Below, one piece after another: positions 32,258 to 36,286 of a stretch of DNA of 36,286 nt. Made by a program: the position numbers and the translations under genes. Each line of letters starts with the position of its first letter. The first letter of the stretch is position 1. Source of the DNA: Verrucomicrobiota bacterium (GTDB taxonomy: Bacteria; Verrucomicrobiota; Verrucomicrobiia; Limisphaerales; JADLHS01). The DNA lies in the NCBI GenBank assembly GCA_025350905.1, contig JANXWY010000265.1, positions 1 to 36,286 on the forward strand, given 5' to 3'. Below the pieces are notes generated by a model. The model had not been told where the DNA came from. It saw only the letters and a list, made by a program, of their open reading frames with translations, and did not search any database.

Positions 32258-32317
32258 AAGTACTCAGTGTTCAGTATTCAGAAATCGCGCGTTTCCGCGA
32301 CTGAACACTGAATACTT
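32258..32317. repeat. Inverted pair of heptamer arrays between lspA and rluD
   Basis: The left array TACTCAG, TGTTCAG, TATTCAG (32261-32281) and the right array CTGAACA, CTGAATA (32301-32314) both have an exact 7-base period. The arms 32258-32274 and 32301-32317 pair over 17 bases with one mismatch, so the lspA-rluD transcript would carry a hairpin just before the rluD start codon. Confidence 0.85.
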
Positions 32318-33019: not shown

Positions 33020-36000
33020 CTAAGGGGGGTTCGCTCCGGGCTTCCGATTGAACGCCATGTAGTAAAGCACCGGCACGGCCATGCGGCTGATGAGCAGCGA
33101 AGCGACCTCCCCGGCCATGAGCGAAATGGCCAGCCCTTGAAAGATTGGGTCGGCGAGAATCACACTCGCGCCCACGACCACCGCCATGGCGGTGAGCAGC
33201 ATCGGACGAAAGCGCACCGCGCCGGCATCCACCACCGCCGCGGCCAAAGGCATGCCTTCGCGGAGTCGTTGTTCGATGAAATCCACGAGGATGATCGAGT
33301 TGCGCACCACAATGCCCGCGCCCGCCATGAAGCCGATCATCGAAGTCGCGGTGAAGAACGCGCCCATCGCGCCGTGCGCCGGCATGATGCCCACCAGCGA
33401 AAACGGAATCGCCATCATCACAATCATCGGCGTCAGGAACGAACGGAACCAGCCGACCATCAAAACGTAGATCAACACGAGACACGCGGCGAACGCCGTG
33501 CCGAGGTCGCGGAAGACTTCGATCGTGATATGCCACTCACCGTCCCATTTGATGGCGGGTTCGTGATCGGTGAACGGCTGAACGGCGTTATGGATCTTGA
33601 TCTTCGTGGCCGCCGACGTAAGGAGGCTCTGACCATTGGGGTTTTCAGAATGAGCCTCCTCACGTCGGCTGCTACCTAGATCGGAAAACTCGCGCGCATC
33701 GAGCTTCTTCAGCGCTTTGTTCATCGCCAGAATCGCATACACCGGACTCTCGATCACGCCGGCCACGTCGCCGATGACATAGGTCACAGGCATGAGATTC
33801 TTGTGATAGATGCTCTTGTCGGTGATCGTGCGCTCGATGGTCACCAACTCGCGCAACGGAATGAGCGGTGGCGCGCCATTGGCCGCGCCGGGCTCGGGCA
33901 GCGCATTCGCGTCGCCCGAGCGCACCCGCAACGCGAGCAATTCCTCCGGGCTGGTGCGGCTGGCGAGCGGCAATTGCAAAACGATGTTGACGTCCTCCTT
34001 CTCGCGCGGCACGTGCAACAAGTCCACGGATTGCCCGCCGACCGCGATGGCCAGCGTCTGCGAAATCGTTTCGGCGCTGATCCCGTGCAATGCCGCCTTC
34101 TCCTTGTCGATCACGAAGCGGGTCTTCGGCTGGTCGTCCTCGAGATACCAATCCGTGTCCACCACGCCCGGGGTATTTTTGAAAATGTCACGCACCTGGC
34201 GCGCGAGCGCGTGGCGACTTGCTTCCGTAGGTCCATAAATTTCGGCGACGAGCGTTTGCAGCACCGGCGGGCCGGGCGGCACTTCCGCCACCGCGACCCG
34301 CGCCCCAAATTTCGCCGCGATCGCCGCCACGCGCGGGCGGACGCGCCGGGTGATGTCGTGGCTCTGCGCCTTGCGGTCGCCCTTCGGCACGAGGTTGACC
34401 TGGATGTCCGCCACGTTCGCGCCGCGCCGCAGGAAATAATGCCGCACCAGCCCGTTGAAGTTGAACGGCGACGCCACGCCCACGTAAACCTGATAATCCG
34501 TGACCTCGGGTTCGCTGCGAACGGCAGCGGCGATTTCACGCGCGGCTTGCGCGGTGCGTTCCAGCGCGCTGCCTTCGGGCATGTTGAGGATGATCTGGAA
34601 CTCGCTCTTGTTGTCGAACGGCAACATCTTCACCTTCACCCAACCGATGCCAACCAGGGCCAGGGCCACGAGCAACAAACCCACGATGCTCGCGAGAAAA
34701 ATCCACCGCCACTTCGCTTGGGCAATCATCGGTCCCATGAAACGGCGATAGAGCTTCGTGAAGAAATCCTCCTCATGTTCGTAGCCGCCGACGTGAGGAG
34801 GCTCTATTTTTGTCCCGCCGGCCGAGGGGAGAAGGGGAAAAGGTGCCGGGGGAGCTTCGGCAACGGATGGCTTAACCTCCTCGGCACCCTTTCCCCTGTT
34901 CTCTTTTTCGGTTTTGCCTTCAGCTAGCGCCTCCGCATGTCGGCGGCTACGGCCCCATTTGAGAATTCTCACCGCTGCCCAGGGCGTGACGATGAATGCG
35001 ATGAGCATGGACCAGAACATCGCCGCGCTGGAACCAATCGGAATCGGGCGCATGTAGGGCCCCATGAGTCCACCGACGAAGGCCATCGGCAGCACCGCGG
35101 CAATGACGGCAAACGTGGCGAGAATGGTAGGATTGCCGACTTCATTCACCGCGTCCACCGCGATATCGCTCCACTTCCGCCCTCGGTTGAATGGCAGATG
35201 AAAGTGGCGAACGACGTTCTCGACCACGACGATGGCGTCGTCCACGAGGATGCCGATGGCGAGCACCATGCCGAACATGGTGAGGACGTTGATCGAGAAC
35301 CCGAAGGCCAGCATCGTGCCGAAGGTGCCGAGCAGCGCGACGGGAACGACGATGGTGGGAATGAGGGTCGCCCGGATGTTTTGCAGGAACAGGTACATCA
35401 CGAGGAACACCAGGACGATCGCCTCGAACAGCGTCTTGAGCACCTCCTCGATGGAGATCGCGACGAACGTCGAGGTGTCCAGCGGGTAGTCGACGCGGAC
35501 GCCCGGGGGGAAGAAGCGGGAGAGTTCCTTCACCTTCTTGCGCACGGCCTCGGCGGTGTTGAGCGCGTTGGCGGAGGGCGCGAGCTTGATGGCGACGGCC
35601 GCGGAGAGGTGGCCGTTCACGCGCGCCTTGGTGCCGTAGTTCTCGGCGCCGAGAGCCACGCGCGCCACGTCCTTCAGCACGACCCGCGAGCCGTCCGAAT
35701 TCGCGCGCAACAGGATGTTCTCGAACTCCTCGGGAGTGCGCAGCGTGGTGCGCCCCTGCATGATCACGTTGAGCTGCTGCCCGGGCATCGCGGGATTCGC
35801 GCCGACCTGACCGACCGGGACCTGCTGGTTCTGGTTTTGGATCGCCGCGGTAACGTCGGCCGGCGTCAGGGCGAGGGCGGCGAGGCGTTCCGGGCGGAGC
35901 CACACGCGCATCGCGTACTGCGACCCGAACATGTTCGCCTCGCCTACGCCCGAGACGCGGCGGATCGGGTCGAGGATGCTCGACGCGATGTAATTCCCGA

Positions 36001-36286
36001 GGGCGATTTCATCGAGGCTGTCGTTGGTCGTCGACAGCGTGAAAAACATCATGAAGTTCCGGGTCGCCTTCGCCACCACGACGCCCTGCTGCTGGACGGT
36101 CGCGGGCAGGCTCGGCGCGGCGAGCTGCACCTTGTTCTGCACCTGCACCTGCGCCACGTCGGGGTCGGTGCCGGCTTCGAAGGTCAGCGACACATTGGCA
36201 TTGCCCTGCGAGCTGCTGGTGGAGGACATGTAGACCAGCCGATCGATGCCGGTCAGCGACTGCTCGATGATCTGCGTCACCGATTC
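33020..36286 (-). CDS. RND-family efflux transporter permease (N terminus beyond window), with in-frame repeats
   Basis: A 1088-residue partial protein open to the window edge (ESVTQIIEQSLTGIDRLVYM corresponds to about residue 60 of AcrB), so the true start is outside. The first third reads as AcrB/HAE1: porter domain, FLVMYLFLQNIRATLIPTIV and the charged helix-4 motif GILVDDAIVVVENV. After that motif the sequence changes type (VNEVGNPTILATFAVIAAVL, PIPIGSSAAMFWSMLIAFIV), resembling a different RND permease group, and remains so to the C terminus. Two palindromic elements (33606-33675 and 34781-34950) are translated in frame, the second in the central cytoplasmic loop. It uses the proton gradient to export substrates with an adaptor and outer-membrane channel, neither visible here. 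Substrate unknown. Confidence 0.9.
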   Translation of the reverse strand, partial: ESVTQIIEQSLTGIDRLVYMSSTSSSQGNANVSLTFEAGTDPDVAQVQVQNKVQLAAPSLPATVQQQGVVVAKATRNFMMFFTLSTTNDSLDEIALGNYIASSILDPIRRVSGVGEANMFGSQYAMRVWLRPERLAALALTPADVTAAIQNQNQQVPVGQVGANPAMPGQQLNVIMQGRTTLRTPEEFENILLRANSDGSRVVLKDVARVALGAENYGTKARVNGHLSAAVAIKLAPSANALNTAEAVRKKVKELSRFFPPGVRVDYPLDTSTFVAISIEEVLKTLFEAIVLVFLVMYLFLQNIRATLIPTIVVPVALLGTFGTMLAFGFSINVLTMFGMVLAIGILVDDAIVVVENVVRHFHLPFNRGRKWSDIAVDAVNEVGNPTILATFAVIAAVLPMAFVGGLMGPYMRPIPIGSSAAMFWSMLIAFIVTPWAAVRILKWGRSRRHAEALAEGKTEKENRGKGAEEVKPSVAEAPPAPFPLLPSAGGTKIEPPHVGGYEHEEDFFTKLYRRFMGPMIAQAKWRWIFLASIVGLLLVALALVGIGWVKVKMLPFDNKSEFQIILNMPEGSALERTAQAAREIAAAVRSEPEVTDYQVYVGVASPFNFNGLVRHYFLRRGANVADIQVNLVPKGDRKAQSHDITRRVRPRVAAIAAKFGARVAVAEVPPGPPVLQTLVAEIYGPTEASRHALARQVRDIFKNTPGVVDTDWYLEDDQPKTRFVIDKEKAALHGISAETISQTLAIAVGGQSVDLLHVPREKEDVNIVLQLPLASRTSPEELLALRVRSGDANALPEPGAANGAPPLIPLRELVTIERTITDKSIYHKNLMPVTYVIGDVAGVIESPVYAILAMNKALKKLDAREFSDLGSSRREEAHSENPNGQSLLTSAATKIKIHNAVQPFTDHEPAIKWDGEWHITIEVFRDLGTAFAACLVLIYVLMVGWFRSFLTPMIVMMAIPFSLVGIMPAHGAMGAFFTATSMIGFMAGAGIVVRNSIILVDFIEQRLREGMPLAAAVVDAGAVRFRPMLLTAMAVVVGASVILADPIFQGLAISLMAGEVASLLISRMAVPVLYYMAFNRKPGANPP
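33606..33675. repeat. Palindromic element, copy 1, inside the RND gene
   Basis: Arms 33606-33629 and 33652-33675 are 24 bases each and pair at 21 positions, with a 22-base loop. On the coding strand they translate as SSRREEAH and SLLTSAATK, an insert in a periplasmic loop of the pump. The right arm matches the left arm of copy 2 (34781-34804) at 23 of 24 bases when reverse-complemented. Confidence 0.85.
34781..34950. repeat. Composite palindromic element, copy 2, with a nested palindrome
   Basis: The outer arms 34781-34804 and 34927-34950 pair at 21 of 24 positions and belong to the same family as copy 1. Inside is a second inverted repeat, 34829-34848 against 34882-34903 (motif GGGGAAAAGGTGCCG). 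The whole is open in the RND frame and encodes about 57 residues, rich in Glu, Lys, Ala and Pro, in the cytoplasmic loop between the two halves of the transporter. Confidence 0.8.

Follow-up and report, generated by a model that had tools for sequence, protein, structure and literature searches.

How does a palindrome with a second palindrome nested inside it come to lie within a protein-coding gene without closing its reading frame? REP-type palindromes are usually treated as extragenic. The window analysed here, a stretch of 36,286 nt, is contig C355 of a 6.27-Mb genome recovered as a metagenome bin (489 contigs, 4.17% contamination), and the element in question, 170 nt at 34781-34950, touches 57 codons of a gene identified by domain search as ACR_tran (E = 1.6e-199), an RND-type pump whose frame is stop-free throughout the element. 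Judged by homologues of the pump, of which the first 14 named ones listed are labelled Verrucomicrobiota and one of these subdivision 3, the genome apparently belongs to that phylum. The initial annotation described a nested composite whose outer arms belong to the family of a shorter copy in the same gene (copy 1), and offered two explanations: that it is the full-length element, from which copy 1 arose by deletion, or that one palindrome family was inserted into another.

The composite element and its host gene

The element consists of two inverted GTAG-tagged REPs, set head-to-head in a REPIN-like manner around a GA/TC-rich hairpin (Table 1). Its outer arms (34780-34806 and 34925-34951), both of which contain GTAG, show 89% complementarity over 27 nt and are separated by 118 nt. 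As single-stranded DNA the 191 nt from 34770 to 34960 fold with -51.6 kcal/mol (z = -6.15), and as minus-strand RNA with z = -6.42; in each case 0 of 200 shuffles equalled the native sequence. Arms, inner hairpin and open frame are thus all as initially described, and so are the frames in which the arms are read: on the minus strand the first arm gives SRRHAEA, in the same frame as SRREEAH of copy 1, whereas the second gives PPHVGGY as compared to LLTSAAT. The latter shift arises because the REP-to-REP spacer of the composite measures 126 nt (0 mod 3), and that of copy 1 only 26 nt (2 mod 3).

Table 1. Position and strand of the pump gene and of the palindromic features within it
Feature	Coordinates	Strand	Remarks
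Host gene, RND (AcrB/AcrD/AcrF-type) pump	33020..36286	-	Truncated by contig end
Copy 1, ordinary head-to-head REP dimer, 26-nt spacer	33606..33675		Read GSSRREEAH...SLLTSAAT
Closing (distal) REP, GTAG-tagged	34781..34802	+	0 mismatches to pattern; gene reads PPHVGGY
18-nt linker, closing REP to end of 130-nt unit	34803..34820		From sequence
130-nt mosaic unit: REP head, 17-nt linker, GA/TC-rich hairpin	34821..34950	-	Gapless alignment with HemL (two genomes), DUF1553 and C356 copies
Inner GA/TC-rich hairpin, loop resembles TCCGTYGCCGAAG	34822..34911	-	Alignment columns 40-129; folding
Leading REP, GTAG-tagged, 2 mismatches	34929..34950	-	Read SRRHAEA, in the frame of copy 1

The pump gene itself, read from 36286 to 33020, is a junction of two subfamilies. 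Its identity to G032:C2 is 77% for residues 1-160 and 90% for residues 160-334, the switch lies at ~35212-35290 (about residue 334), and segments beyond it reach up to 98% identity to another subfamily, of which contig C356 has the matching first part. The switch may reflect genuine recombination or else a false join of short reads close to where the contig ends. Recombination at the element was considered, as the similarity of the two gene halves seemed to shift nearby, and was rejected, the shift lying at about residue 334. Elsewhere in the window, an 18-nt inverted repeat (32258-32317; 94% complementary, arms 24 nt apart) lies between two open frames.

The GTAG-REP family

The REP pattern GTAGCNGCCGACGTNAGNAGGC occurs at 224 sites (118 + 106) of the own genome with up to 3 mismatches, whereas its reversed control has 8. 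With a limit of 2 mismatches, 45 of 57 genomes including the own one hold at least one site, G048 being the richest with 335, and genomes with only 1-2 sites are near control level. Among the matches listed, the GTAG tag is present in the 80 zero-mismatch sites and in most of the 20 one-mismatch sites; the C356 and DUF1553 copies described below carry GTGG instead. Tetranucleotide tag, high-copy stem-loop of 20-40 bp and dimers in opposite orientation are those of the GTAG REP superfamily, and in the consensus fold given below the REP stem-loop corresponds to paired columns 2-26.

Neighbouring REPs were counted when less than 400 bases apart, with up to 5 mismatches per REP, over 267,928 bases of the own genome picked for REP sites, Y1_Tnp genes or weak matches. 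On this basis 71 of 82 pairs are head-to-head, 7 tail-to-tail and 4 direct. Spacers of the head-to-head pairs favour 26, 29, 44 and 50 nt; 65 of the 71 are at most 57 nt long and 8 are exactly 26 nt, and a spacer of 126 nt is found in C355 and C356 only. The phase 2 mod 3 prevails (43/71), in 23 of 32 dimers within long open frames and 20 of 39 others, a difference that is suggestive only. Flank preference is weak (TC/GTAG...CTAC/GA; C at -1 in 32/60, G at +1 in 34/60). One further dimer of the own genome (C48:11791-12034) has a 200-nt spacer that holds another palindrome, of GCCGGCATCCCTGCCGGC type, in a reading frame that continues for 521 residues to one side and 84 to the other.

A joined unit of 130 nt at three loci

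Searched as DNA, the inner hairpin has convincing matches in its own genome in C355 and C356 only. Some match at E <= 0.1 is present in 11 of 57 genomes, and the best outside the own genome (G002:C235, 70% over 93 nt, E = 5.8e-5) sits within HemL, behind a REP. A search for AGGAGGCTC followed after 8-32 nt by GAAAAGGAG returned 4 places in 3 of 57 genomes, with none for the reversed control; at three of these places exactly 17 nt separate the REP from GAAAAGGAG, and the fourth (in G048) is a plain dimer. Five copies of the joined unit were compared, from HemL of G000 and G002, a DUF1553/PSD1 gene of G002 and the RND genes of C355 and C356. Each is 130 nt long from GTAG or GTGG to a final GC, and they align without a gap, loop included, at 82% mean column identity; the unit ends in CTCTGC, or CTCGGC in its window version. 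Their consensus folds into the REP stem and, behind it, a long hairpin, with 37 pairs in all, 9 of which change on both sides with pairing kept in at least one sequence. Within the genus, HemL, DUF1553 and RND thus provide only three independent loci for the exact unit, since the two copies in HemL, like those on C355 and C356, probably go back to a single event. The idea that native loop residues persist inside the hairpin, where the codons for TEG and SVAEA resemble the loop of relatives, was rejected: ordinary REP-dimer spacers also contain ACTGAAGGC-like stretches, and the loop sequence is seen again in the DUF1553 copy and, in a less exact form, in HemL of G002.

The five copies served to build a covariance model, which was run on 293 genomes of the order and matched 68 of them at E <= 0.001, many of the weak matches listed being REPs or hairpins alone. 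That the training copies score 1e-21 to 1e-26 follows from how the model was built; the next match scores 1e-10. Among 27 further matches inspected, a non-random choice from the upper part of the list, 8 have a REP (up to 3 mismatches) at the head (L341, L313, L315, L342, L318, L319, L346, L323) and 19 are GA/TC-rich hairpins without a head REP, two with a doubtful REP of 6 mismatches. In 19 of the 27 an open frame crosses the hairpin and extends for at least 50 residues to either side. Inner-type hairpins lie in UvrC of the own genome (L348; Pfam UvrC_RNaseH_dom) and, judged by reading translations, also in UvrC (L343), PriA (L344), a BioA-like aminotransferase (L316, L321) and a CusA-like pump (L320). 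L323, by the same kind of reading, comes from another family of the order and represents the RND loop of the composite, filled with a REP and a GA-type hairpin, the orientation being opposite to that in the window and the hairpin sequence different. The pattern of the hairpin arms was found at 5 places in 4 of 12 genomes, with a long hairpin in G001 (L193) and none at G006:C75 (L195).

REPs and inner-type hairpins are each found alone, as expected of two nested families, and inner and outer palindromes also occur together elsewhere, joined in HemL and DUF1553. But did the inner hairpin jump into an existing REP dimer at the RND locus itself? Both families exist on their own, the stretches beside both REPs resemble ordinary dimer spacers (e.g. 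C186, C86), and there are other nested cases, such as the C48 dimer with its 200-nt spacer and the pump orthologue L072. Nevertheless we consider a local jump unlikely, as HemL and DUF1553 contain a join of identical length (130 nt) without a closing REP, and fresh nesting would not be expected to repeat that join. Of the proposed insertion of one family into another, the two families stand, whereas a fresh nesting at this site fits poorly with a join geometry fixed at three loci. A REP-hairpin join that is fixed in this way, at 130 nt and gapless, suggests that the joined unit spread. Vertical descent together with gene conversion could account for some of the copies.

Reading frame and selection

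Some stop-free frame runs through 68 of the 71 head-to-head pairs of the own genome, and 32 of the 71 are located within frames that stay open over at least 95 residues to either side. Two of these 32 are in the window gene; the other 30 were run against Pfam (E <= 1e-5), which gave 22 with a domain and 8 with none. In 7 of the 30 the domain runs across the dimer (ArgJ, N6_Mtase, Anticodon_1, SNF2, HATPase_c, ExoVII, Aminotran_3).

Over 700 nt the identity between the window and C356 is 87%, and it is 86% within the element, where there is no gap; the single pair of gaps in the alignment is at its far end. Substitutions at the first, second and third codon position number 9/7/9 in the element, as compared to 11/2/27 and 6/2/17 in the flanks (third positions, element versus flanks, Fisher p = 0.0086). 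Since the frame is kept while the peptide drifts between the two copies, the composite insert looks tolerated by the pump rather than functional. The opposing explanation, that the insert is a part of the protein or RNA under selection, serving as loop extension or mRNA hairpin, could appeal to the conserved frame and length and to the strong hairpin formed by the RNA strand. It is nonetheless very improbable, because the element is free of the codon-position bias that is strong in its flanks, is shared by C356 only, and matches no Rfam family at gathering score, with only 18 sub-threshold matches of miRNA-type hairpins.

We give slightly less credit still to an artefact of metagenome-bin assembly. 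The number of contigs, the contamination and the subfamily change near the contig end would all be in its favour, but this change is about 260-340 nt away from the element, with subfamily-A sequence continuous on both sides, and the element is present again in C356 at an identity close to that of the gene stretch around it. Moreover, its 130-nt part is found in other genes and in another genome.

Loops shared by unrelated palindromes

Orthologues of the pump were compared at 29 loci, 28 of which cover the loop at the composite site. The region of window residues 441-510 spans 75-183 nt in the 28 orthologues and 210 nt in the window and C356. Hairpin z at this site is -6.4 in the window, -3.1 in C356, -2.5 in L057 and -2.2 to +2.2 in the others. 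Among the homologues seen, the insert is shared by C356 only, which agrees with the expectation that relatives lack these residues. It is, however, no pure addition: the loops of relatives include some 23 native residues, KKYSRLTEGTPSAAEAGQVHLHS-like, in whose place the composite stands, and a simple clean insertion is therefore a poor description of the RND site. No genome among the 28 orthologues covering the loop has a bare REP dimer at the same boundaries, and by eye the composite was not seen in 80 further homologues of other groups, whose loop lengths vary.

The site of copy 1 is an empty loop of 42 nt in 17 of 29 rows. In longer rows it contains REP-like dimers in the window, L060 and L068, a GCAGAGGGG...CCCCTCTGC hairpin in L064, a palindrome of CCCTCACCCC type in L063, another GTAG-ended palindrome in L057 and a further type in L065 and L067. 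Hairpin z ranges from -1.5 to -8.1 in the eight rows of at least 84 nt; for 180 control windows from the same RND genes the minimum is -3.2 and the median -0.08. The suggestion that copy 1 derives from the full composite by deletion, prompted by the same outer arms in the same gene, can hardly be upheld, as copy 1 is an ordinary REP dimer with a common spacer length, the 126-nt spacer is confined to C355 and C356, and REP-like dimers without a GA hairpin occupy the same site in other genomes (L060, L068).

Insertions of at least 8 residues in the pump are confined to three short regions (core columns 219-223, 451-462 and 835). A third site in the pump, besides those of the composite and copy 1, likewise holds different palindromes, and L072 is a nested case in frame, a GTAG-ended palindrome enclosing a different inner one.

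HemL was sought in 38 genomes and matched in 36, and 30 loci from 30 genomes were examined; its identity is given by TIGR00713 above cut-off in G000 and G002. The loop after LEEL measures 27-30 nt in 15 of the 30 and 63-195 nt in the other 15, whose fillings were classed by eye as REP dimers (L278, L282), the 130-nt unit (L277, L280), a GA hairpin (L279, L285), another GTAG-type palindrome (L286, L292, L296), the CCCTCACCCC type (L281, L283, L287) and others (L284, L290, L291). Only 6 of these 15 reach z <= -3, which indicates that several are decayed or non-significant hairpins; the 130-nt copy of the own genome (L280) has z = +0.9, no better than shuffles. Insertions of at least 8 residues, present in 12 of the 30 sequences, all lie at one place among 444 core columns. 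Over the empty loop of 30 nt the net gain equals the element plus 2 nt in three cases, L282, L278 and L280 (73+2, 94+2 and 130+2). A structure model of HemL had a mean pLDDT of 57.6, too low for use, the insert (321-365) and much else being of low confidence. We further noticed a third in-frame palindrome family, CCCTCACCCCGGCCCTCTCCC..., in the same loops of HemL (L281, L283, L287) and of the pump (L063, L057). The same HemL and RND loops hold unrelated palindromes in different genomes.

Mobility and proposed mechanism

Target-site duplications, looked for at REP dimers as direct repeats of 2-5 nt at six offsets, were not detected in 60 pairs, there being no significant excess over shuffled pairs (lowest p 0.11). 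Y1_Tnp matches number 16 in the own genome and 53, as listed, in nine relatives. No copy of this REP (up to 4 mismatches) lies within 1 kb of the 31 loci examined (5 of the 16 and 26 of the 53, respectively), some of which end before 1 kb at contig ends; the nearest is about 1 kb away, on C407. When all 16 own loci were searched at up to 5 mismatches in the fetched sequence, single weak matches appeared at C210, inside the gene, and at C374, 335 nt off. As none of the 31 loci has this REP nearby, mobilisation by a RAYT can only be inferred. Many of the examined Y1_Tnp genes carry inverted repeats of their own, which, according to Di Nocera et al. 2013 (PMC3733652), is likewise the case for some RAYTs.

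The composite is probably a small mobile DNA hairpin. Its core of 130 nt is made up of a GTAG-REP, the 17-nt linker and the long GA/TC-rich hairpin, with a second, inverted REP closing the RND copy, so that the window element amounts to a REP dimer whose spacer holds a second hairpin family. In the mechanism that we propose, it may transpose as single-stranded hairpin DNA by means of a Y1 enzyme (IS200/IS605- or RAYT-like) acting in trans, and the insert would be translated as part of the pump. Selection would then spare only copies that are in frame, free of stops and placed in tolerant loops. Nesting may come about when palindromes land in or beside existing ones, after which a joined unit could move as one. 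Our main reading, to which we assign a probability of roughly two in three, is hence that of a non-autonomous mosaic palindromic element in a permissive loop of the RND pump, translated, mobilised in trans by a Y1 enzyme and spread as a unit.

But why would the same few loops be filled again and again? Tolerance of a few loops would be enough to explain this recurrence without targeting, while the nested cases (C355, C48:11791, L072) suggest that existing palindromes may in addition attract new ones. A wider generalisation would be that unrelated palindrome families share a few protein-loop landing pads across the order, landing in or beside each other, that the nested unit of the window is one product of this, a mobile 130-nt mosaic, and that new elements arise by fusion in coding sequence. 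We offer it tentatively, as something that could be so but probably claims too much. The loop sites, one in HemL and three in the pump, make it testable whether palindromes choose occupied sites or few loops tolerate them. In addition, there is a consequence for annotation, as it is repeat DNA that encodes stretches such as SRREEA...LLTSAAT of predicted proteins.

Comparison with known systems

MITEs are short and non-autonomous with inverted ends. They are also recognised by target-site duplications, which were not detected here. Rickettsia palindromic elements (RPEs) resemble it as palindromes within unrelated protein genes, and we know of no RPE that is a mosaic of two families. According to PMC3733652 the RPEs of R. 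conorii end in CGTC, and the window element carries GTAG instead.

REPINs, as described by Bertels and Rainey 2011 (PMC3116915), are similar in that two inverted REPs and a spacer form one hairpin and that REP distances are preferred; the window element too is a REP doublet able to form one hairpin. REPINs are, however, reported there to be extragenic and clustered beside RAYT genes, whereas the elements described here are often intragenic. Since none of the 31 Y1_Tnp loci has the same REPs beside it, we file the element as a GTAG-REP dimer and not as a proven REPIN-RAYT system.

Closest are the GTAG-REPs of Di Nocera et al. 2013 (PMC3733652), which share the GTAG tag, the short stem-loop, the high copy number and the dimers in opposite orientation. 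Intragenic GTAG-REP dimers are already known from that work: it reports intragenic dimers, most of them (of GTAG type) in the Verrucomicrobium Opitutus terrae, some dimer spacers with stem-loops of their own and, as a precedent for shared sites, different REPs in recB of two Xanthomonas. We found no earlier report of a 130-nt mosaic or of loop sites shared by several families, in a literature taken mostly from outside subscription journals, and the words hemL, composite and nested are absent from the main text of PMC3733652. In comparison with that work, two things are different here, namely a defined mosaic of 130 nt, which includes a second hairpin that is GA/TC-rich and dispersed independently, and the presence of several unrelated palindrome families at one protein loop across an order. 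Taken together, many of the REP-type palindromes described here sit within the open reading frames of conserved enzymes, and a fusion of two families has given a unit of exact length.
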